From: Advenella sp. S44
GTDB lineage: Bacteria; Pseudomonadota; Gammaproteobacteria; Burkholderiales; Burkholderiaceae_B
Length of the DNA stretch: 64,000 bases
Direction: 5' to 3'
NCBI RefSeq assembly: GCF_002810445.1
Contig: NZ_NEXS01000003.1
Location: forward strand, 496,001 to 560,000
Made by a program: the position numbers and the translations under genes. Below, in pieces: positions 32,537-42,706 of this stretch; position 1 is the stretch's first letter; every line of letters starts with the position of its first letter. The notes under the pieces are model-generated. The model saw only the letters and a list, made by a program, of their open reading frames with translations. It had not been told where the DNA came from and made no database searches.

Positions 32537-33301
32537 ATGGAAAATTTACGCGTCCAGGATATTCACAAACGTTTCGGCAGCAACGAGGTGCTCAAGGGAG
32601 TGTCGCTGCTGGCCAATAAGGGCGATGTCATCAGTATTATCGGCTCCAGCGGCTCGGGCAAAAGCACGCTGCTGCGCTGTATCAATTTTCTAGAAACGCC
32701 CGACTCGGGCAGAATATTTGTTCATGGCCAAGAGCTGCGCACGGTTCAGCGCAAGGGCACTTTGGTGCCGGCTGATCGCCGCCAATTGCAATATATGCGC
32801 ACCCGGCTGTCCATGGTGTTTCAGCATTTCAATCTGTGGTCGCATATGACCGTGCAGGAGAACATCATAGCCGCGCCGGTCAATGTTCTGGGCCTGTCGC
32901 GCCAAGAAGCGCTTGTCAGGGCGCAAAGCAATCTGCTTAAAGTGGGGCTGGGGCTGGATACCTTGAAAAAGTACCCCATGCACCTGTCGGGCGGGCAGCA
33001 GCAACGCGTGGCGATTGCCCGTGCACTGGCGCTGGAGCCCGAGGTAATGCTGTTTGACGAGCCCACGTCAGCTTTGGATCCGGAGCTGGTCGGGGAAGTG
33101 CTGCGTGTCATGCAGAAACTGGCCGAGGAGGGGCGCACCATGATTATGGTGACGCACGAAATGGCGTTTGCTCGCCAGGTGTCCAGTCATGTGATGTTTT
33201 TGCATCAGGGCGTGGTTGAAGAAGAGGGTGCTCCCGGTGATATTCTGAGCAAACCCAGAAGCGCCCGTCTGGCGACCTTTCTGGCAGGTAATCTCAAATA
33301 G
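32537..33301 (+). CDS. hisP: Amino-acid ABC transporter ATP-binding protein (HisP type)
   Basis: 254 residues with all ABC ATPase motifs: Walker [10 protein letters not shown] near residue 38, Q-loop ([18 protein letters not shown]) near 95, signature LSGGQQQR near 153, Walker [13 protein letters not shown] near 175 and the switch VTHEMAFAR near 208. The insertion between Walker A and the Q-loop ([20 protein letters not shown]) is the one seen in HisP/ArtP-like proteins. It energises import through HisQM. Last gene of the operon. Confidence 0.92.
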
Positions 33302-33739
33302 GAAAACGGGTTGTCCGGCTTGATTGGACACGTTTCAAATATCAAAACTGAATGCCGGGGTTTTGGCGGGCGCATCTTAAAGCGCAAACCCGATAGCCTG
33401 GGTAGGGTGGGCGCGTCTCACACGGCCAAATCAATTGTCTGGCTTTGTTGAGTGTGTCTCAATTAGCGACATCGATGGTCCCGCTAGGCTGGACGCGCCC
33501 TGCGGGCCGTCGGCCAGGGCCGGCGAGCACCGGGCTACGTATTATCAACACGCCGTTTTTTTGCCCTAAGCGCAATAAGACGCGAAAACGTCATATTTTT
33601 TTAGAATTGCTGCCGTTACATTGTTTACAGACAACTAGTGTACATTAGTAGGGTTACAGGCCGTTTATAAATATAAATGTAAATCGGAATGGCAGTACGC
33701 GTTCCCCTGAAGTCCTGTTCTCTCTAAGAGAGAGTCTAT
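33302..33739. other. 438-base gap before the glycosyltransferase cluster
   Basis: No gene is visible. The left part is GC-rich with several short dyads. A small hairpin GACG/CGTC at 33579-33592 followed by an AT-rich T run may end the ABC operon transcript. The last 130 bases are markedly AT-rich (two ATAAA tracts near 33666-33680) and should contain the promoter of the cluster; several -10-like boxes exist, but none has a convincing -35 at normal spacing. CTCTCT (33720-33725) pairs with AGAGAG (33727-33732), which includes the likely ribosome site of the next gene. Confidence 0.4.
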
Positions 33740-34675
33740 ATGCAACGTGTCAATATTATTATCCCAACGTTTAACCGTGCCGGGCTAATTGCAGGTGCAG
33801 TGGACGCGGCATTGGGTCAGAGTTACCCGAACAAACAAGTCACGATCATCGATGATGCATCTACCGATGATACCCGTCGGGTACTGCAGCCGTATTTTGA
33901 GCATCCGGACTTTGTCTATGTTCGTCTTGCGCGCAATATGCATACGGCACAGGCCAAAAATGTCGGCATTGCGCTTTCAATGTCAGATGCCATTACCTTT
34001 CATGATTCCGACGATCGGCCCTTGCCTGACAAGGTGCTGATGCAGGCGCGCACCCTTTTCAATACCCGCGTCGTTGCCGACAGTAGCATGAATTGGACGG
34101 CCTTTGACCATGAACCGCAGCAGGGGCTGCCGGTTTCACTGGTGCTCACAGAACACGAATTGATCCGCTGGGACGGATCGCGTCTGATCGCGCAAAATGC
34201 CCTGCGCCTTGTCGACGATTTTTTCCCCAATATTCAGGGGCGATTGGACCAGTCTGGAGACTGGATCCTGGTCAATGCCGGTCTTTTTCGCGCCCAGGTG
34301 TTTAGTCGTTACGGCGGTTTTCGTAATAGTATCGAAGAGGACAGGGATATGCGCAATCGGTTAATAATGGCTGGCGAAGTGGTGCATTTGTTGCCCCAGG
34401 TTCTGCTCCGGAAATTCGAGTATGACGATTCGCTGACGATGGCTCAGGCCTCGGACTATCACAGCGAAGGTCGCCAGTCGGACCGCGCCGCGATCTGGGC
34501 TGATATTGCCGCATGGCGTCGAACCGGGCAGGTGGCCCCCCAGCCCATTGATCTGTCTGAGTTACGAATCGATTTTATTTCCAATCCGGCTTCGGTTGCC
34601 ATTTCTGAGGCGATGATGACCCCTGAGACACGCGAACGACTGCAACAACAATTGCAAGCTGCAGGTGTATTATGA
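33740..34675 (+). CDS. Glycosyltransferase family 2 (GT-A fold)
   Basis: 311 residues, soluble. VNIIIPTFNRAGLIAGAVDA then VTIIDDASTDDTRRVLQ gives the nucleotide-sugar site, and ITFHDSDDRPLPDKV near residue 95 is the DxD-type metal motif. The middle region NIQGRLDQSGDWILVNAGLFRAQVFSRYGGF with EEDRDMRNR contains the likely catalytic-base acidic residues. It is the first gene of a tightly packed cluster and overlaps the next glycosyltransferase by four bases. It transfers a sugar from a nucleotide donor; donor and acceptor are unknown. No membrane helix is visible. Confidence 0.85.
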   Translation: MQRVNIIIPTFNRAGLIAGAVDAALGQSYPNKQVTIIDDASTDDTRRVLQPYFEHPDFVYVRLARNMHTAQAKNVGIALSMSDAITFHDSDDRPLPDKVLMQARTLFNTRVVADSSMNWTAFDHEPQQGLPVSLVLTEHELIRWDGSRLIAQNALRLVDDFFPNIQGRLDQSGDWILVNAGLFRAQVFSRYGGFRNSIEEDRDMRNRLIMAGEVVHLLPQVLLRKFEYDDSLTMAQASDYHSEGRQSDRAAIWADIAAWRRTGQVAPQPIDLSELRIDFISNPASVAISEAMMTPETRERLQQQLQAAGVL

Positions 34676-35766
34676 AGCGCCTGAAGATTGCTATTGTTGA
34701 TGGTTTCTGCCCCCGCCCATACGAAGGGCAGACATGGCAGAACGAGGCTATGGGCGGGACAGAGCTGACAGCCGCCCGAGTGGCAGAAGCACTCGCGGTC
34801 CATCATGATTTGGTGGTAATGCAGCACTGTCGGCAAGAGGCAACATGCAGCGCTGCCGGAGTGCGCTATGAGCCCGGCGCCGATTGGCGCAAGCTGGCAG
34901 GGCAGTGCAGGTTTGATGTTGTCATTATCATCAATTCGCTCAAACTGCTCGCGCTGTGGCACAAGCATGCTTGCGCGCAAACGCGTCTGATTTTATGGCG
35001 ACATAATTTTACGGGCGCAACGCATAAGCATGCCGCGAACGTGTTGGCCGATACGAATGCGCAAATGATTTGCGTCTCGCACAGTCACAGGCGCCATACG
35101 CTGGCCGTGCTTGGTATCACCGAAGATTCGCCGCCATCGGCGAGAATTGGCGTGATCTATAACCCGGTTGTGACCGATCAATCGAAACCCGAAGCCTCGG
35201 CGCAAACTGTGGTGGATACCAATCAGTTGCTGTTTGCCAGTTCTCCGCATAAGGGACTGGAGCAGGTTCTGGACAATTTTGCGAAACTGCGGCAACGACT
35301 GCCGCAACTGTCGCTGCTGGTCTGTAATCCCGGGTATCTTGAGCGATCCGTTCCAGCGTGTGAGGGGGTGCATTTTACCGGTAAGCTCAGGCCAGCCCAG
35401 GTGCACGCGCAAATGCGACGCAGCCTGTGCCTGTTCAATGCGCAAAGCACGTTTGCGGAAACCTTTGGCCTGGTTTTTGCCGAGGCCCACAGCATGGGAA
35501 CACCTGTGGTAGCGCAGCGCGGTCTGGGGGCAGTCGATGAGGTGGTGGGGCGCAGGGACGGGCAGGCGCTGGATGTGAACGACGAGCAGGCAGTATACGA
35601 GTTGGTGGCCAGTTGGCGCGACGGCCGGCGACCGCGCGTGTCAATGAGTCCGACGTTTTCTCTGGCGGTGGTAAAAGCACAATGGCTAAAACTGCTCAAT
35701 CCAGATGCGATCGCTCCTGAGAGCCAGCAGACCGAAACCGGGAGTATTCCATATGCGATATTCTGA
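34672..35766 (+). CDS. Glycosyltransferase (GT-B fold, GT4-like)
   Basis: 364 residues. The N-terminal half opens KIAIVDGFCPRPYEGQTWQ then GGTELTAARVAEALA; the C-terminal nucleotide-binding half has LLFASSPHKGLEQVLDNFAKL near residue 185 and AETFGLVFAEAHSMGTPVVAQ near 260, the E-x7-E motif of retaining GT4 enzymes. It begins at an ATGA overlap with the GT2 gene and its 3' end overlaps the dehydrogenase-like gene by 14 bases. It probably adds a second sugar to the product of its neighbour (inference). Confidence 0.85.
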   Translation: MKRLKIAIVDGFCPRPYEGQTWQNEAMGGTELTAARVAEALAVHHDLVVMQHCRQEATCSAAGVRYEPGADWRKLAGQCRFDVVIIINSLKLLALWHKHACAQTRLILWRHNFTGATHKHAANVLADTNAQMICVSHSHRRHTLAVLGITEDSPPSARIGVIYNPVVTDQSKPEASAQTVVDTNQLLFASSPHKGLEQVLDNFAKLRQRLPQLSLLVCNPGYLERSVPACEGVHFTGKLRPAQVHAQMRRSLCLFNAQSTFAETFGLVFAEAHSMGTPVVAQRGLGAVDEVVGRRDGQALDVNDEQAVYELVASWRDGRRPRVSMSPTFSLAVVKAQWLKLLNPDAIAPESQQTETGSIPYAIF

Positions 35767-36937
35767 GGCACTGAGCCTGAACGATTCCCATGTGGCAAGT
35801 CTGCTTGAGCTTGAACAGTCGCTGTATGCCCGTGCGGCAGATGTGGACGCATTGGGGCTGGATCTGGACGTGGAAATGGCGATGCTGCGCAGCGCCGGCC
35901 TGCTGTCGGCATGTGTGCCTCGTGAGTACGGAGGCCAGGGGCTGGGGTGCGAGCATGATGCGCATTCTGTGCTGACGGCATTTGCGACATTGCGCATGCT
36001 GGGGCGGGCGACGCTTTCGGTGGCGCGTCTTTATGAAGGGCATATGAATGCAGTGAAACTGGTTGCGTTGTACGGCAGCCAGGCGCAGAAAGCCCAGTGG
36101 CTACCGCTAGTCTTGGCGGGCCAGTTGTGGGGGGTGTGGGGCGCAGATGGCGCGACACCATTGAGCGCTACGTTGATGTCAGACGATGCCTCAAAAACAC
36201 GGCATTATGTGCTGCATGGGCAGAAGGCGTTTGCCTCCGGGCTGGGGTTGCTGGACCAGGCGATTGTGACGTTCAACAGAGGGGCACAGGGGGTCGCCCT
36301 GGCATTGGTCAGTGTGAGCGAGAAGCGGCGACAGGACAAGTCTGCCTGGCGGGTTTCCGGAATGAAGGCCACATGGTCGGGTGTCTACGATTTTGAGGGC
36401 GTGCAAATCGAGGAATCTGCGCTAATTGGCAGCCCCGGTGATTATGTCAAAGAGCCTTATTTCGAGGGTGGGATCTGGCGATACTGCGCGGCCCATCACG
36501 GTGCGGCCGAACAGATTGTCCGGCTATGGCGGACTCGATTGGTGCAAAAGGGACGCGCAGAGGATCCGATACAGTTGACGCGGCTGGCACGGGCACGCGC
36601 CCGGCTTGTCGCTGTGTATTCGCTGCTAAGAGATGTCAGTCTGCAGGTAGAGACCTGTCGTGGTTTGCAGGGCCAAAATAACGTGAATGAAGACGATCAG
36701 CGCGCGGCTGTAGAGATGGCGCTGCTGGGTCGGGAAATGACCGAAGAGATGGCAGTAGCATTGATGAATGACGCCAGAAAAGCGCTGGGTGTAGAGGCTC
36801 ATCTGCCGCAATCGGATATGGAAAGAATCTGCCGGGATTTATCAATCTATTTGCGACAGGCAGGCCCCGACGGCAAGTTGCTCAATGCCGGCCGTCTTTA
36901 TTTGGCCCAGGCCGAAGACAGGACGCGCTTATGGTAA
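35753..36937 (+). CDS. Divergent acyl-CoA dehydrogenase-fold flavoprotein
   Basis: 394 residues from the ATG with GGAG ten bases upstream. LGLDLDVEMAMLRSAGLLSACVPREYGGQGLG and LGRATLSVARLYEGHMNAVKLVALYGSQAQK are the N-terminal helical domain, and LHGQKAFASGLGLLDQAIVT the flavin strand. The usual TEP-x-AGSD loop is replaced by VWGADGATPLSATLMSDD, and the C-terminus lacks GGTxEIxR; GMKATWSGVYDFEGV resembles ACAD-fold hydroxylases and nitrososynthases. In a saccharide cluster it could desaturate an acyl group or oxidise an amino sugar (inference). It overlaps both neighbours, so it belongs to the pathway. Confidence 0.72.
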   Translation: MRYSEALSLNDSHVASLLELEQSLYARAADVDALGLDLDVEMAMLRSAGLLSACVPREYGGQGLGCEHDAHSVLTAFATLRMLGRATLSVARLYEGHMNAVKLVALYGSQAQKAQWLPLVLAGQLWGVWGADGATPLSATLMSDDASKTRHYVLHGQKAFASGLGLLDQAIVTFNRGAQGVALALVSVSEKRRQDKSAWRVSGMKATWSGVYDFEGVQIEESALIGSPGDYVKEPYFEGGIWRYCAAHHGAAEQIVRLWRTRLVQKGRAEDPIQLTRLARARARLVAVYSLLRDVSLQVETCRGLQGQNNVNEDDQRAAVEMALLGREMTEEMAVALMNDARKALGVEAHLPQSDMERICRDLSIYLRQAGPDGKLLNAGRLYLAQAEDRTRLW

Positions 36938-38259
36938 CTCCGTTGCATCGCGGGCAGTTGCTGGTTCAGGCGGCACAGGCGCCGGCGGTCTCTGTGCAGG
37001 CGCTGGCTGGCCAAGCAAATGTACTGATTCTGTCTCCCCACCCGGATGATGAAACGCTGGGCTGCGCCCAGGCAATAGCTGCTGCCTGTGATTCGGGCCG
37101 CAAGGTGTTTGTGGTCGTCATCACCAATGGCAACCTGTCGCATCCGGGATCGTTGCGCTATCCCAAAGCCGCGCTGGCTGCGCTGCGACGGCAGGAGTGT
37201 ATGAACGCGCTGGATGTCGTTGGTGGCGTCAACGTTGTACCTGTGTTTATGGACTACGACGACCAGTGTGCGCCAAACACGGTGTCAGAGCAGATAGCCT
37301 GTATTGCACGGCTGGAGCAACTGGTGCGCGAATGCAAGATCACCGCCGTATGGACAAGCTGGGAGCAGGACCCCCATTGTGACCATCAGCGCGTTGCGCG
37401 CCTGGGCGAATTGCTGCTTGCTCGCCAGCCGCAACTGGTGCTGTTCAAGTATCCGATATGGGGTCGCTTCCTGCCGGAGGCACAGGCAGTTGAGGGTACG
37501 TTGTATCAATTTACCGGAACGGGCGATCGTAATCGCAAGGCGCGTGCGCTAGAGTGCTACCGCTCCCAGATGACATCGCTCATTGATGACGATCCGCAAG
37601 GGTTTGTGATGGCGCCCGAGACCCGGGCTCACTTTCTGGACACCCCGGAGCTGTTCATTTCCTATGACATTGCGGCGCGGGCTCTGGAATTTGATGCGCT
37701 TTACATGAACGATTCGGACCCATGGCAGTTTCTGACATCGGAATATGAGAACAGCAAGTATGTGACGACATTGTCTGCTTTGCCCCGGCCGCGCTACCGA
37801 CGCGCGATTGAAGCCGGGTGCTCTATTGGTGTCCTGACCGAAAAACTGTCCGCGCGGTGTGATGAGGTGATCGGGCTGGATATCTCCGGCGTGGCCGTTG
37901 ATCTGGCGCGGGCCCGCAACCGTCATATCCCGCAGATTCAGTTTCGGCAGGCGCCATTGCCCCAGGCGTGGCCGCAAGAATCGGCCGATCTGATTGTGTT
38001 GTCCGAAATTCTTTACTTTCTCGATGTCATGCAGATCGAGCAACTGGCAGGACAAATCGCCCGAACCTGGGAAAAAAATGGCGACTGTATTGTGGTGAAC
38101 TTTTCGGGAGATACATGCCAGGCGCTGCACGGTAAGCAGGCGGCCACGATATTTTGCGAGGCCATCAGACGTTATGCGCAGGTCGACTGTGTCCTGAGTC
38201 AGACTTATGAGAAATATAGTCTGCTGGTTCTGAACCGGATTGGCGACCCGACGGCTTGA
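36931..38259 (+). CDS. Fused PIG-L/LmbE deacetylase and NodS-like SAM methyltransferase
   Basis: 442 residues. The N-terminal domain (about 28-235) has LILSPHPDDETLGCAQAIA and DPHCDHQRVA, the metal-binding motifs of PIG-L zinc deacetylases that remove acetyl from GlcNAc-type sugars. The C-terminal domain (about 255-440) has RAIEAGCSIGVLTEKLSARCDEVIGLDIS (SAM motif I and acidic residue) and ADLIVLSEILYFLD, close to NodS, which N-methylates the deacetylated amine in Nod factors. The fusion implies deacetylation followed by methylation of the same amino sugar (inference). It starts seven bases inside the preceding gene. Confidence 0.85.
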   Translation: MVTPLHRGQLLVQAAQAPAVSVQALAGQANVLILSPHPDDETLGCAQAIAAACDSGRKVFVVVITNGNLSHPGSLRYPKAALAALRRQECMNALDVVGGVNVVPVFMDYDDQCAPNTVSEQIACIARLEQLVRECKITAVWTSWEQDPHCDHQRVARLGELLLARQPQLVLFKYPIWGRFLPEAQAVEGTLYQFTGTGDRNRKARALECYRSQMTSLIDDDPQGFVMAPETRAHFLDTPELFISYDIAARALEFDALYMNDSDPWQFLTSEYENSKYVTTLSALPRPRYRRAIEAGCSIGVLTEKLSARCDEVIGLDISGVAVDLARARNRHIPQIQFRQAPLPQAWPQESADLIVLSEILYFLDVMQIEQLAGQIARTWEKNGDCIVVNFSGDTCQALHGKQAATIFCEAIRRYAQVDCVLSQTYEKYSLLVLNRIGDPTA

Positions 38260-38394
38260 AAAAGGCCTGCAAAGGCCGCAGTGGTTTCGCAGGCAACGGG
38301 CAGGACCGTATCTTGTCCTGAGGCGCGAATGACTTATTGGTTCCGACTGGTAACAGTTGATTTGCGCAATATATTAATAATTATCTGGAAGACT

Positions 38395-39528
38395 ATGATT
38401 ACTACAGAAGATGGCGTGCAGCTGAATGATCACTGCGGTTACGTTGCGCAATTGGCAAACTGCCCATTGTCTTATGTGATTGCTATTCCGGCCAAAAATG
38501 AGCAGGCTACGATCGTTGCCTGCCTGGATGCGTGCTGGCAAAGTATGCAGCTTGCGGTCGGGACGGGCAAGATTTTGCTTGTAATCAACAACACCACCGA
38601 TACTACTCAGGCGCTGGCTGCGGCATGGGCAAGTCAGACAGGCTGTCCGCTTGAAATTGTCAATATTACGGTGGCGGCGCATGCTTGCGAGGCTGGCTAT
38701 GTTCGCAGAATGGCGATGCAATGGGCTGCGCTTTCGGTGCGGCCCGATGGTGTTCTTCTGTGCACCGATGCAGACTCCCGGCCTCATATTGACTGGGTGT
38801 CAGCCAATCTGGCGCAGATTGCTGCCGGCTATGATCTGGTATGCGGCGACATTTTGCTGGATCAATCACACCCGCAATATCAGCAAATTTGCGCCATTCA
38901 TCGGAAGAACGCGTTGGAAGGGCAGTATCGGCAGGCCAGTCTTGAACTGATCCATCAACTGGATCCAGACCCGGATAACGTCTGGCCACATCACAATCAG
39001 GTTTCCGGTGCCAGCCTTGCTATCCGCAGACAGGTGCATGATGAGGTGGGGGGCGTCCCGGCTGTGCCGCTAGCTGAAGACCGGGCTTTGGCGTTGCGGG
39101 TGGCTTTGCATGACTATCGCATCTGTTATTGCGATAGGGCCAGGGTGGTTACCTCCTGTCGCATGGACGGAAGGGCGCAAGGCGGCATGGCGCAGGCCTT
39201 GCGTATCCGGGCAGGCAATGAGGATTTTTTGATTGATGAATCACTGGAGCCTGCGGATCTGGTGCTGCTGCGTGCGGGCACGCGGGCTACAGCACGCCGG
39301 GCGTTGCAGCAGGGACGAAGTCGTCATGATCTGTATGCGTTTCTGAAGATTGAGCCCTCACGTTACGAGACGCTGGACAAAATCAGGCGATTCGGGATGT
39401 TATGGCAACAGCTTGAACTGCATGCGTACTGCCTGCGACCCCAACGCGTACTGTATAGCCAGTTGCCGGTTCAACTGAAAAAAATCGAGGCCATGTTGAT
39501 GCATATGAGTGAGTTTGATATGTCTTGA
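38395..39528 (+). CDS. Glycosyltransferase family 2 (GT-A fold)
   Basis: 377 residues from the ATG at 38395 (GGAAG upstream). YVIAIPAKNEQATIVACLDA opens the GT-A domain, VLLCTDADSRPHIDW near residue 125 is the DxD motif, and GASLAIRRQVHDEVGGVPAVPLAEDRALALRVALHDYRI near 205-240 holds the ED pair expected to act as catalytic base. The C-terminal 100 residues are helical and unassigned. No membrane helix. It lies 135 bases after the deacetylase/methyltransferase, with a small GGCCT/AGGCC hairpin in the gap, so it is probably part of the same transcript. Confidence 0.82.
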   Translation: MITTEDGVQLNDHCGYVAQLANCPLSYVIAIPAKNEQATIVACLDACWQSMQLAVGTGKILLVINNTTDTTQALAAAWASQTGCPLEIVNITVAAHACEAGYVRRMAMQWAALSVRPDGVLLCTDADSRPHIDWVSANLAQIAAGYDLVCGDILLDQSHPQYQQICAIHRKNALEGQYRQASLELIHQLDPDPDNVWPHHNQVSGASLAIRRQVHDEVGGVPAVPLAEDRALALRVALHDYRICYCDRARVVTSCRMDGRAQGGMAQALRIRAGNEDFLIDESLEPADLVLLRAGTRATARRALQQGRSRHDLYAFLKIEPSRYETLDKIRRFGMLWQQLELHAYCLRPQRVLYSQLPVQLKKIEAMLMHMSEFDMS

Positions 39529-39623
39529 TAAAAATGATTGTTTAGTGCGCCTGTTCAGCGTTTACGCAAGCCGAATGTGAACATATTTTGCAGACATTCA
39601 CCGCGCCGATATCAGGAAATATA

Positions 39624-41075
39624 ATGATGAAATGGATTCTGGCTATAAGTATTCTTGCCGTGTACGCGAACACCGTTGTGTTCGTTGTGAGTTGGGGCCT
39701 CAAATGGTCTGTGCTGCTTGTTAACTGGAAAAAGAACAGGCGGCAAGCAATCACAGCGGTAGATGACGGCGCCACCGCAAGATCAGGCCATCCGGCCGCA
39801 TTGACCAGTTATGGTGCAGCGTTTTTTTCTGTACATTTGCCCACGCACAACGAGCCACCCGATATTGTCATTAAAACAATAGATTCCATTCTGGCATCCC
39901 ATTATGATGACTTCGAACTGCTTGTGATCGACAATAATACGAGCGATCCTGATTTATGGACGCCCGTCAGTGAACACTGCCTGCAAATGGGGCCGCGGGT
40001 CCGGTTTTATCATTGCATGAATGTCGCCAATGCCAAGGCTGGCGCACTGGATATCGCACTGGGGTTGCGCAGTTGCAGATCGACCCACGTTGTGATTGTG
40101 GACGCCGATTACACCGTGGACAGAGATTTTCTGAATCGCGCATCCGATTTGCTGGCACACAACGAATACGACTACATCCAGTTTCCACAATCTTATCGGG
40201 GCGAAGGCGCTGCAGGATTGAAATATGAACTGGGCCTGTATTTTGCGACTGTGAGCAGAGCCGCCGATGCGGCCAATACCATGCTGCTGACCGGTACCTT
40301 GTCAGTGATTGCGGTCAATGCGCTCAATACATTGGGCGGATGGAAAACGTCGACCCTGACCGAAGATGCAGAAATCGGACTCCAACTGCATATGCGCGGG
40401 TTCCGTGGGCGCTATATTGGACAGTCGGCAGGGGCAGGTTTGTTACCGTTTACCTTCTTTGATCTGGAAAAGCAAAGGGAGCGCTGGATTCATGGGAATT
40501 TCCAGGTTCTTGCCCGATATTTCACACGAATTATGACCGTGAAAAAAACCTATCTGGTGGCTATTTTATCCCAACTGTCGGCCTGGTTTGCCTTCTTGCT
40601 GATACCGATGGTCTTTATGCTTCTGATTCCGTTGTTTGCCGGGTATCAGCCATTGTCGGGCCAGGCTGCATGGGCGCTGGCAATGGCGGCGGCAACGATT
40701 ATTCTTGATTTTGTGTCCCGGTTTGTCTTTATTCGCCTCTCGGGTTCGAGCACAAAGCTGGCTCAGGTGCTGGATACGTTTGTCGTTTCCTGGGCCCTTG
40801 CCGCCAGAAGTTCCATGGCCACCTTTACAGGCAATTTGCCGGCGTCCCGAATATTTCATCGTACCAACAAGAGTCTTTGCGACGATTCTGGCGTAGTACG
40901 CAGCATCAGCACGACGGTGGTCGCTATCGTTGGCAGCTTGGCGGTTCTCCAGGGCTTATTGATGGCTCAGCCATCGGTTGTGGTGGCGGGAATATTGTTG
41001 GCGCTTATGTTGCCTTTTCAGTGGCTGACCAGTCGGCGATTGCTGCGCTACCGCAATCATTTGCGGGCGCGTTGA
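39624..41075 (+). CDS. Membrane glycosyltransferase family 2 (QxxRW-type, BcsA/NodC-like)
   Basis: 483 residues from the ATG at 39624; a second ATG follows directly. An N-terminal helix (ILAISILAVYANTVVFVVSWG) is followed by a cytoplasmic GT-A domain: FSVHLPTHNEPPDIVIKTIDSI, LLVIDNNTSD, HVVIVDADYTVD, LTEDAEIGLQLHMRG and EKQRERWIHG (D, D, TED and QxxRW motifs of processive beta-glycosyltransferases). Four or so C-terminal helices start near residue 310. Members make cellulose, chitin, hyaluronan or beta-glucans. Its closeness to a deacetylase/NodS-like fusion recalls NodC, but substrate and co-transcription with the upstream cluster are unproven. Confidence 0.85.
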   Translation: MMKWILAISILAVYANTVVFVVSWGLKWSVLLVNWKKNRRQAITAVDDGATARSGHPAALTSYGAAFFSVHLPTHNEPPDIVIKTIDSILASHYDDFELLVIDNNTSDPDLWTPVSEHCLQMGPRVRFYHCMNVANAKAGALDIALGLRSCRSTHVVIVDADYTVDRDFLNRASDLLAHNEYDYIQFPQSYRGEGAAGLKYELGLYFATVSRAADAANTMLLTGTLSVIAVNALNTLGGWKTSTLTEDAEIGLQLHMRGFRGRYIGQSAGAGLLPFTFFDLEKQRERWIHGNFQVLARYFTRIMTVKKTYLVAILSQLSAWFAFLLIPMVFMLLIPLFAGYQPLSGQAAWALAMAAATIILDFVSRFVFIRLSGSSTKLAQVLDTFVVSWALAARSSMATFTGNLPASRIFHRTNKSLCDDSGVVRSISTTVVAIVGSLAVLQGLLMAQPSVVVAGILLALMLPFQWLTSRRLLRYRNHLRAR

Positions 41076-41146
41076 GGTCGCCAGGCGATTGCGTCGGATC
41101 AGCGCGCCGCGCCAGCGCCGCAAAATGGGAGTTGGCGACTGCACGA

Positions 41147-41163
41147 GCCGCTGGGCGGTTTTT
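41147..41163 (+). terminator. Short rho-independent terminator after the glycosyltransferase cluster
   Basis: Stem CCGC (41148-41151), loop TGG, stem GCGG (41155-41158), followed by TTTTT. It stands 72 bases after the membrane glycosyltransferase stop codon. The remainder of the 41076-41373 gap carries no gene; a TCACA-AA-TGTGA dyad at 41278-41289 is the only other symmetric element seen. Confidence 0.55.
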
Positions 41164-41373
41164 GTAAGCATTCATTAACCGCCGCCCCGGGACGGCATGC
41201 AGGCTCGCATCTGATAACAAAATGAACACAAACCGATACCCAAAGCTGTGCCAGTGCCCCGACCAATAATGATATGGTCACAAATGTGATCGCAAGAGAC
41301 GCATTATCGCAGTTGTTATATTGCGTGTGGATGATCACCCGATGTTAATGATTCGAATACAGGAGATTGATCA

Positions 41374-41565
41374 ATGCCAGCAAAATCCCAGGATCAACAG
41401 AAAGCGGCGGGCGCGGCACTGTCTGCCAAGCGCGGAGAAACAAAAGTCAGCAGCCTCAAAGGCGCTTCCAAATCCATGCATGATTCCATGACGGAAAAAG
41501 AACTTGAAGAGTTGGCCTCTACCAAGCGAAAAGGCAAGCCGGAACACGTGAACAAAAAAGACTGA
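41374..41565 (+). CDS. Small basic protein of the DUF3008 family
   Basis: 63 residues: MPAKSQDQQKAAGAALSAKR at the start, then VSSLKGASKSMHDSM, ELEELASTKRKGKPEHV and a Lys-rich end. This conserved small protein, with its K/S/A-rich helix and a TEKELEE segment, is found across proteobacteria; it has been seen as general-stress or nucleoid-like but has no settled function. AGGAG lies seven bases before the ATG. It is flanked by a terminator on each side, so it is monocistronic. Confidence 0.85.
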   Translation: MPAKSQDQQKAAGAALSAKRGETKVSSLKGASKSMHDSMTEKELEELASTKRKGKPEHVNKKD

Positions 41566-41571
41566 GCGAAA

Positions 41572-41596
41572 AATGCAACGCAGTGCGCGTTGCATT
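41572..41596. terminator. Bidirectional stem-loop terminator
   Basis: Perfect ten-base arms AATGCAACGC (41572-41581) and GCGTTGCATT (41587-41596) around a five-base loop. The minus-strand transcript ends in a run of five T bases, fitting termination of the Rieske oxygenase gene that stops at 41609; on the plus strand it follows the DUF3008 stop codon by six bases. Confidence 0.8.
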
Positions 41597-41608
41597 TCGC
41601 AACCGATG

Positions 41609-42706
41609 TTAATCGGGTTGCGCGATAGCGGCTTGCTCAATCGGAATGATGGTAGCCCTGTTTTCTGCCGTTGCAGCAGGTGGGCTGGTTTGTTCCTGTT
41701 CCTGGCTGATCAGGCGATCCAGACCCTTGCGGAACTTGATCGGCCCGCCGTCGAGTTTAAGATTGATGAAGGGCGTGCGGCGATTGTCCATGCCTTTTTG
41801 GACTGCGCTCAGTACGATCCGGTCTTCTTCAAATGCCTTGCGTACGCCTTCGGCGAATTGGCGCGAGACGTCTGCGTCATTGGCACTGAAATTTCTGAGC
41901 TGGAACCAGAAGTAGCGGGTGGTTTTTTCGTCTACCGGCGTCAGAAAGTTATAGGAGTCCATCAGGAACACGTCCGGATGCAGCGGCGCCTGATCGCCTC
42001 CCGTGCCCGCAGGCGTAAAGATGGCTTTGATGATGGCGTGGGAAGGATAACGCACTTCATAGTGCTGCTTGCGGTCGCAGTTGCCGGAAAACTTGACGAA
42101 TTTTGCGTAAAAGGGGGCGACCTCGGTATCGTACATCCAGCGCGATACGATCACGCCGTTGTCCGTAACCGTCGTGGTCAGGGGTTCGTTTGCACAGGCG
42201 CTGTTGCCAAAAGAGCTGCGATGCACCCATGCCACGTGCGAGGGGTCCAGCAGGTTGTCGGTCATGTACAGATAATTGCACTCGACGATCATGGCGTCAC
42301 CCTGGTTGATGCCCCATGCCGGGTCGCCATACTCCGCAATTTGCGGAATCAGCGAGGCGTCGGCCTTTTGCGGATCGCCCATCCATACCCAGACCAGTCC
42401 GTACTTTTCGGCAATGGCAAAACTTCTAACAGTGGCGGCCCGGGGGATTTTTGCGCCGGGCGCGAAAATACAGGCGCCCTGGCCATTGAACGTAAGCCCA
42501 TGATAGCCGCATTCGACGGCATCATCGACCAGACGTCCCATGGATAAAGGCAGTTTGCGGTGCGGACAGGCATCTTCAAGGGCGACGACCTGGCCGTCCT
42601 GCTGGCGATAGAACACCAGATATTCACTGAGCAATTGCAATGGGTAGAGCTCATGGCCGATGTCGTGGCTCCAGGCCGCGACATACCATGCATTCTTCAG
42701 AAACAT
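41609..42706 (-). CDS. Rieske non-heme iron oxygenase (vanillate O-demethylase VanA-like)
   Basis: 365 residues. Rieske ligands C47-P-H49 and C66-x2-H69 (ACPHR ... CGYHG) are followed by the mononuclear iron motif near residue 155 (NLLDPSHVAWVH, two His plus a nearby acidic residue). MFLKNAWYVAAWSHDIG is the typical VanA/toluate-type start. VanA enzymes O-demethylate aromatic methyl ethers using electrons from a VanB-type reductase. No reductase gene is adjacent: gshA lies upstream and a terminator downstream, so the partner must be elsewhere. The substrate is uncertain. Confidence 0.82.
   Translation of the reverse strand: MFLKNAWYVAAWSHDIGHELYPLQLLSEYLVFYRQQDGQVVALEDACPHRKLPLSMGRLVDDAVECGYHGLTFNGQGACIFAPGAKIPRAATVRSFAIAEKYGLVWVWMGDPQKADASLIPQIAEYGDPAWGINQGDAMIVECNYLYMTDNLLDPSHVAWVHRSSFGNSACANEPLTTTVTDNGVIVSRWMYDTEVAPFYAKFVKFSGNCDRKQHYEVRYPSHAIIKAIFTPAGTGGDQAPLHPDVFLMDSYNFLTPVDEKTTRYFWFQLRNFSANDADVSRQFAEGVRKAFEEDRIVLSAVQKGMDNRRTPFINLKLDGGPIKFRKGLDRLISQEQEQTSPPAATAENRATIIPIEQAAIAQPD

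Follow-up and report, generated by a model that had tools for sequence, protein, structure and literature searches.

A widespread flavoenzyme, deacetylase and methyltransferase gene module and its glycosyltransferase-enlarged form in Advenella sp. S44

Nod-factor tailoring by NodC, NodB and NodS brings together a synthase-type membrane glycosyltransferase, the deacetylation of an amino sugar and its N-methylation. The acyl-CoA dehydrogenase (ACAD) fold is found in the class D flavin monooxygenases DszC, MsuC and TdsC, and in the amino-sugar nitrososynthases (KijD3, DnmZ and the Micromonospora nitrososynthase). In Acinetobacter baumannii, ACICU_02432-02435, with the product names glycosyltransferase, S-adenosylmethionine (SAM)-dependent methyltransferase, LmbE and ACAD, are listed as one operon (PMC5660220, Table 2). 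Here we describe a cluster of six genes that has something in common with each of these systems; it occupies positions 33740-41075 of a 64 000-nucleotide stretch of Advenella sp. S44 DNA (contig NZ_NEXS01000003.1, positions 496001 to 560000), which we call the window.

The core of the cluster, an ACAD-fold flavoenzyme, a PIG-L deacetylase and a NodS-like methyltransferase, usually accompanied by a family-2 glycosyltransferase (GT2), is conserved, so that the cluster is not unique to this genome; the window form, with three extra glycosyltransferases (GT2a, the family-4 enzyme GT4 and the membrane enzyme mGT2), is a rare add-on to that core. We think it rather probable that the window carries the enlarged form of a widespread module, one that tailors an amino-sugar glycoconjugate by deacetylation, N-methylation and oxygenation, chiefly under stress. 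The enzyme types are well supported. Glycosyltransferases would build a saccharide with an N-acetylated amino sugar, from which the cytoplasmic PIG-L half of a fusion protein would strip the N-acetyl group; the NodS-like half of the same protein would then methylate the freed amine with SAM. This sugar would also be oxygenated by the flavoenzyme, whose most likely role is that of a class D-type flavin monooxygenase with the amine, or a position beside it, as its target. Where the extra glycosyltransferases are present, the processive-type mGT2 may elongate the chain and perhaps export it without a separate flippase. The product, most likely an N-methylated, oxidised amino-sugar glycoconjugate, would be made chiefly in stationary-phase, oxidative or drying stress, where it could be protective, possibly also in the window's species. 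If this is true, NodB/NodS-type sugar chemistry is not confined to symbionts: it belongs to a common module, where it is combined with a flavin oxygenase, and the module defines a concrete gene list for revealing a product that we have not found identified in print. In the openly available literature we found no description of the module's function or product and no matching characterised locus, in keeping with the original prediction, made from the window sequence, that this gene set is not known from any characterised pathway.

Open reading frame (ORF) calling gives six consecutive + strand ORFs at 33740-34675, 34672-35766, 35705-36937, 36931-38259, 38281-39528 and 39588-41075. For three of them these are the earliest possible starts (ATG 35705, flavoenzyme; GTG 38281, GT2b; TTG 39588, mGT2). 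With ATG starts at 35753, 38395 and 39624, the genes overlap by 4, 14 and 7 bases and are then separated by gaps of 135 and 95 bases, exactly the layout first proposed. The Pfam series reads GT2, GT4 (Glycos_transf_1), Acyl-CoA_dh_N, PIG-L plus NodS in one protein, GT2 and membrane-type GT2, and the features are as follows:

33302..33739, + strand: upstream junction, where the cluster follows an ABC-transporter ATPase gene; empty site in congeners G003, G007 and G008
33740..34675, + strand: GT2a, soluble family-2 glycosyltransferase, accessory (enlarged form); Pfam PF00535, 1.8e-22
34672..35766, + strand: GT4, family-4 glycosyltransferase, accessory (enlarged form); Pfam PF00534, 7.5e-13
35753..36937 (ATG 35753), + strand: ACAD-fold flavoenzyme, core, probably class D flavin monooxygenase-like; Pfam PF02771, 1.7e-11
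36931..37671, + strand: PIG-L de-N-acetylase half of the fusion protein (gene 36931-38259), core; Pfam PF02585, 3e-21
37648..38259, + strand: NodS-like SAM-dependent methyltransferase half of the fusion protein, core; Pfam PF05401 (NodS), 4.3e-13
38395..39528 (ATG 38395), + strand: GT2b, family-2 glycosyltransferase, usual partner of the core; Pfam PF00535, 7.6e-7
39624..41075 (ATG 39624), + strand: mGT2, membrane GT2, accessory, candidate processive synthase; Pfam PF13632, 1.4e-23

The terminator-like signals originally placed at both ends of the cluster did not hold up. A scan of 33000-42000 gave 8 sites against 9.7 expected in shuffles, with none inside the two end regions, and the RNA folds at both ends were no better than shuffles (z 0.28 each). 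A weak hairpin followed by a U-run is possible at about 41140-41166.

A tblastn search with the PIG-L/methyltransferase fusion protein gave matches in 180 plasmid records, 13 of which were inspected. All ten annotated ones, from Roseomonas, Sulfitobacter, Bradyrhizobium, Deinococcus (two), Komagataeibacter, Sphingobium, Novosphingobium, Kitasatospora and Jiella, have flavoenzyme, PIG-L and methyltransferase genes in the same order, and profile searches recovered all three core genes in the three unannotated ones (Methylobacterium, Nostoc and Streptomyces). The core also occurs in records from Deinococcota, Cyanobacteriota and Actinomycetota, and is present in A. baumannii, Deinococcus radiodurans and many Methylobacterium; public records annotate its genes piecewise, and two A. 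baumannii papers list them by product names. In the D. radiodurans locus (L175:4231-6843), a DEAD/DEAH helicase gene on the opposite strand lies between the PIG-L and methyltransferase genes.

We then turn to loci found through the methyltransferase. A methyltransferase-only scan of genome contigs gave 422 loci, the best 80 of which were fetched; these come from one degenerate pattern, hence their alphaproteobacterial lean, and some of the contigs are cut. Among these best 80 of 422, the flavoenzyme (at least 150 bits) is present in 78, PIG-L in 51 and a GT2b homologue in 59. In a broader sample of 398 Pseudomonadota genomes, a methyltransferase profile search (E<=1e-12) gave a match in 57, the Advenella genome included. 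Fifty newly fetched loci were inspected together with that of genome G060 (L039), the other rows, all below 61 bits, being left out; each sampled locus spans about 5 kb on either side of the methyltransferase, with only the best glycosyltransferase profile per ORF listed. The flavoenzyme lies near 30 of the 32 matches of at least 139 bits in genomes other than our own (those without it are L130 and L150) and PIG-L (at least 100 bits) near 25 of the 32; among the fetched matches below 139 bits, only 2 of 19 have the flavoenzyme (L163 and L171). A GT2b homologue is present in 23 of the 31 sampled loci L125-L155. The PIG-L linkage is favoured by construction, because the methyltransferase profile was built from loci found through the PIG-L/methyltransferase protein; the flavoenzyme linkage is not so favoured. 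Many of the loci are close relatives and not independent. A flavoenzyme profile search (E<=1e-40) found 5 of 229 genomes, our own included, with at most eight candidates scored per genome, and is not used as a count.

A failure of the six genes' homologues to co-occur in other genomes was named at the outset as grounds for rejecting the proposal; homologues do co-occur. What changes is the unit, proposed as the ordered set of six genes: the conserved unit is a core of three to four genes found in several phyla, and the enlarged set recurs, rarely. In L156-L162, L164 and L165, NodS-like methyltransferase domains lie inside open frames of about 750-1220 aa with no flavoenzyme nearby; several of these long frames weakly match glycosyltransferase profiles, and they are perhaps a different family of large fusion proteins.

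The PIG-L half of the window protein scores well over the Pfam gathering score (PF02585, 76.7 versus 28.2 bits), and the residues of its zinc motifs HPDD and HxDH (H37, D39, D40, H149, D151 and H152) are invariant in 24 aligned sequences. The nearest structure to its model (predicted local distance difference test, pLDDT, 94.4) is an archaeal diacetylchitobiose deacetylase (E 6.7e-13 with the model, 7.2e-25 with the profile). The methyltransferase half is above its own Pfam cut-off (PF05401, 50 versus 24 bits); in a profile search its best solved relative is 4isc (1.2e-49), a chain named only methyltransferase, and its nearest named one is NodS (3ofj, 2.4e-27), with weaker matches to phosphoethanolamine N-methyltransferases (1.7e-14) and gentamicin N-methyltransferases (about 4e-7). 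A single ORF encodes both domains in the window genus and also in L108 and L153; in Methylobacterium aquaticum (L027), one ORF holds GT2b and the flavoenzyme. In Rubrobacter indicoceani, a NodB-type (PF01522) deacetylase gene stands directly upstream of the flavoenzyme and methyltransferase genes, which are followed by a pyridine-nucleotide oxidoreductase (Pyr_redox_2) and then a glycosyltransferase gene, and no PIG-L match was found in the 18.5 kb stretch. This replacement, a single case, is our best indication that PIG-L deacetylates a sugar in the pathway to which the methyltransferase belongs. In Cupriavidus basilensis the PIG-L gene is present yet displaced, beyond a catalase gene. Deacetylation followed by N-methylation of an amino sugar, as originally suggested, is the best reading of this pair, given the invariant zinc motifs, the NodS and N-methyltransferase profile matches and the Rubrobacter replacement.

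The likeness to Nod-factor loci lies in this chemistry and in the synthase-type membrane GT2, whereas the cluster has PIG-L instead of NodB, an extra flavoenzyme and no NodA-type acyltransferase domain among its six genes. Against the NodC cut-off (TIGR04242, 550), mGT2 scores 26.3 and GT2a 27.1 bits; the methyltransferase scores 63.7 bits against a NodS family cut-off of 300 (NF041650), and none of the six cluster proteins matches the NodB domain (PF01522). Since none of these searches identifies a NodC, NodB or NodS, we do not regard this as a Nod-factor locus. The earlier proposal of Nod-factor-like chemistry in a non-symbiont survives as chemistry that would resemble NodB plus NodS with an added flavin oxygenase, but not as a set of Nod family members.

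Judged by sequence profile and motif, the flavoenzyme more probably belongs with the class D-type flavin monooxygenases than with dehydrogenases that modify acyl groups. The five best matches in a profile search of the PDB are all monooxygenases, namely DszC (three), MsuC and TdsC (3.2e-25 to 1.3e-21), and DszC and TdsC also head a Foldseek search with the AlphaFold2 model (pLDDT 91.9), closely followed by nitrososynthases and dehydrogenases. Acyl-CoA dehydrogenases carry a catalytic glutamate in a C-terminal YEGT motif. This motif (Y[ED]G[TSA], last 120 residues) occurs in none of 136 flavoenzyme ORFs (the window included, some genes fetched twice), 133 of which have D-L-x-x-aromatic-x-R-Q or a close form in its place; the latter motif was not seen in the Rubrobacter flavoenzyme. 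Isovaleryl- and long-chain acyl-CoA dehydrogenases use an alternative catalytic glutamate; the putatively corresponding region of the flavoenzyme family contains W242-R243, which hardly varies, and no Glu that is invariant. The active-site histidines of DszC are His92 and His391. All 37 flavoenzyme sequences compared have H97, to which a histidine in each of DszC, TdsC and MsuC is aligned, and the later LHD histidine of MsuC aligns with Q369 of the window flavoenzyme family. The window enzyme differs from the class D monooxygenases and the nitrososynthases in having only about 15-23% identity to them in structural alignments, and in the lack of a flavin reductase gene in its cluster. The original prediction had a flavoenzyme modifying an acyl or amino group; the flavoenzyme stands, but action on an acyl group now appears the less probable half of that statement. 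Two Deinococcus flavoenzymes (L024:7704-8800 and L028:7552-8600) have an N-terminal extension of several hundred residues. By eye, that of L024 resembles a glycosidase, a name that neither Pfam (no match) nor a PDB search (best E 0.16) supports.

The sequence motifs of mGT2 are those of a synthase: D103, D160/D162, T246-E247-D248 and Q284-R285-x-R287-W288 (D, DxD, TED and QRxRW) are invariant in seven sequences, and its nearest solved relatives are bacterial cellulose synthases (7.9e-30). Its scores are far under the PgaC and CelA family cut-offs (82.5/422.3 and 65.3/699.1 bits). A processive synthase can export its own chain, and a self-exporting mGT2 could thus explain the lack of an adjacent flippase.

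We found the enlarged form in two congeners, one Paracoccus plasmid and 6 of the 80 fetched loci. GT2a and mGT2 homologues of at least 200 bits occur in the same six, always with core genes: Sinirhodobacter (L081), Paracoccus marinus (L089), Rhodobacteraceae (L104), a Beijerinckiaceae assembly (L108), Pseudooceanicola (L113) and Kandeliimicrobium (L120). GT4 is present in five of them and is not nearby in L108, where the flavoenzyme lies on the other strand. On the Paracoccus sediminicola plasmid (L185), the seven functions follow one another on a single strand, and a catalase gene lies upstream. Gene order varies among the enlarged loci and the gene set is mostly kept. In all, GT2a accompanies the core and mGT2 in L034, L035, L081, L089, L104, L108, L113, L120 and L185, and a GT2a homologue without the core is found in L181 and L186. 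No GT2a or mGT2 match of at least 200 bits is listed for the sampled loci L125-L155, and a search for the GT2a subfamily gave no match among the 397 other sampled Pseudomonadota genomes (E<=1e-30; at most five candidates scored per genome).

Within the genus, the PIG-L/methyltransferase fusion protein is present in two of nine congeners searched, G001 (80% identity) and G003 (66%). Intact homologues of all six genes are found in G001 and G003, and of four in G006; the ratio of non-synonymous to synonymous substitution (dN/dS) is 0.10-0.18 in 13 of the 16 gene comparisons (G001, G003 and four G006 genes), dS being saturated in the other three. We conclude from the intact homologues and these ratios that the six genes are real and under purifying selection. 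On one side of the window cluster is an ABC-transporter ATPase gene of the amino-acid type, on the other a Rieske oxygenase gene; six genomes of the genus, our own included, have these two close together: the cluster lies between them in two, four glycosyltransferases only in one, and nothing in three. The two flanking matches are about 8.3 kb apart in the window; in G001, which also has the cluster, the figure is 7.9 kb, in G006 it is 5.4 kb, and at the empty sites of G003, G007 and G008 it falls to 0.04-0.85 kb. The cluster copy of G003 lies on a different contig of 38.7 kb, about 2.6 kb from a long catalase gene. G006 has GT2a, GT4, GT2b and mGT2 at the site, at 78-85% identity.

The supposed link with stress comes from neighbouring genes and from Acinetobacter. 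On an A. ursingii plasmid, a catalase gene, the gene for a PF14518 protein, the core and otsA/otsB lie within about 14 kb. We presume that this PF14518 protein corresponds to DtpC. Catalase genes also lie near the module in L022, L031, L035, L178 and L185. We surveyed stress genes (at least 60 bits) around three sets of loci: the 80 contig loci, the sampled loci that have the flavoenzyme (31, made up of 29 of at least 139 bits together with L163 and L171) and the sampled loci that lack it (19). A KatE-type catalase is nearby in 12, 2 and 0 of these respectively, LigD-type genes in 24, 1 and 1, Ku in 6, 2 and 0, and OtsA and OtsB in 0, 3 and 0; the counts are only suggestive, because the three sets cover unequal lengths (1455, 350 and 205 kb in total) and contain many related loci.

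In two colistin-dependent mutants of A. baumannii, ACICU_02432-02435 are reported to fall 31- to 62-fold in expression, and otsA, otsB and a hypothetical-catalase operon fall with them (PMC5660220); we equate these genes with the module by product names, not by sequence, and read the change as possibly reflecting a desiccation or stationary-phase regulon. According to PMC13232832, DtpC and KatE protect dried A. baumannii, and its authors name protective small-molecule synthesis as one possibility for DtpC. A blsA-side gene group has the same four product names as the core. In contrast with the window, the A. baumannii operon and the blsA-side group are core only, without GT2a, GT4 and membrane GT2, have separate PIG-L and methyltransferase genes, and are distant in sequence. 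The core profiles are matched by sequence in A. baumannii L176 and in a blsA-type neighbourhood, L187. The L176 record (NZ_CP104448.1), 4.09 Mb long, is filed as a plasmid, and its size suggests a chromosome. L187 (CAKLQH020000004.1) is filed as 'Acinetobacter phage MD-2021a'; with a YcgF-named signal protein, a polyhydroxybutyrate polymerase and transporters around the module, it looks like bacterial DNA labelled phage, because these are ordinary chromosomal genes.

Several observations weigh against a stress-related tailoring module. PIG-L is missing from 29 of the 80 fetched loci, mostly Methylobacterium (some contigs cut), and from the neighbourhood of the sampled flavoenzyme loci L126, L127, L136 and L140, with only a weak match in L148, so that the deacetylase is not always local. 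For the flavoenzyme, structural Z-scores are 38-40 for monooxygenases and dehydrogenases alike, the C-terminal Pfam domains split between PF00441 (27/37) and PF08028 (26/37), and KijD3 (5.8e-19) and a nitrososynthase (5.3e-18) rank below three putative acyl-CoA dehydrogenases in the profile search; because fold comparison and C-terminal domains tie, its class was judged by sequence profile and motif. With regard to stress, the catalase count in the sampled flavoenzyme loci is low (the two of 31 above), and in the window no catalase or trehalose gene was found among the scanned neighbours of the cluster. The ACICU change was seen in colistin-dependent mutants and not on drying, and concerns a core-only operon (PMC5660220); such mutants could be responding to envelope change instead. 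Drying of Acinetobacter sp. Tol 5 is reported (PMC13130816) to lower several acyl-CoA dehydrogenase genes, the module's flavoenzyme possibly among them, with no prominent catalase induction. Finally, the G006 site lacks the flavoenzyme and the PIG-L/methyltransferase gene. A search elsewhere in G006 gave no convincing fusion-protein match (best E 1.1e-4), the flavoenzyme not being searched for there. The gene content of G006 implies that tailoring genes and glycosyltransferases are separable units, and makes it a natural comparison strain, with glycosyltransferases but without tailoring enzymes at the site.

A serious though unlikely alternative is an accessory island of the ordinary kind, which adds an N-methylated sugar to exopolysaccharide or lipopolysaccharide and has no particular role in stress. 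The patchy occupation of the site in the genus is what such an island would show, as are the further glycosyltransferases, carbamoyltransferase and UDP-sugar dehydrogenase of L036, on the same contig as the G003 copy, and the Marinovum plasmid in which a GT2a homologue lies without the core among sugar-transferase and succinoglycan-type genes; it accounts less well for a core that turns up in phyla far apart, that in several records has few polysaccharide genes or none alongside, that adjoins catalase, Ku/LigD or trehalose genes at some loci, and that in A. baumannii appears co-regulated with catalase and trehalose genes (PMC5660220).

We regard as improbable a small soluble redox or protectant glucosaminide resembling bacillithiol or mycothiol, in which N-acetylglucosamine on a small acceptor would be deacetylated and its amine methylated and oxidised. 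A GT4 with a PIG-L enzyme is the logic of BshA/BshB and MshA/MshB, and the structures that neighbour the PIG-L model include BshB and MshB, but the BshA and BshB1 cut-offs are missed (22.5/273.7 and 49.2/182.5 bits), no cysteine ligase is found among the six cluster genes, and GT4 is present in just 8 of the best 80 of 422 loci. The stress-gene neighbourhoods and the small-molecule option of the DtpC authors (PMC13232832) would suit such a compound, whereas the enlarged form's membrane GT2 does not. Returning to the tailoring module, a bolder version, which we hold to be quite improbable, would make its product a novel cross-phylum stress metabolite, an N-methylated, N-oxygenated (hydroxylamine- or nitrone-like) amino-sugar glycoconjugate that, in cells short of nutrients or dried, shields membranes or proteins against damage by oxygen, and that the processive synthase polymerises in the window. 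That the flavoenzyme is a true acyl-CoA or acyl-ACP dehydrogenase desaturating the N-acyl chain of the amino sugar is very improbable, for the shared fold, the Z-scores tied with short- and medium-chain dehydrogenases, the PF00441 matches and the public annotation of some relatives as acyl-CoA/acyl-ACP dehydrogenases are set against the replaced YEGT motif and the monooxygenases that head the profile search.

Two minor features were seen at the insertion site. A 63-aa ORF at 41374-41565 lies between the cluster and the Rieske gene in the window; similar sequence is present at the empty G007 and G008 sites, so the ORF is part of the flank and not of the insert. The glutamate-cysteine ligase gene by the empty G008 site (G008:C1:974947-976368) matches in two pieces only, one of them with an in-frame TGA.

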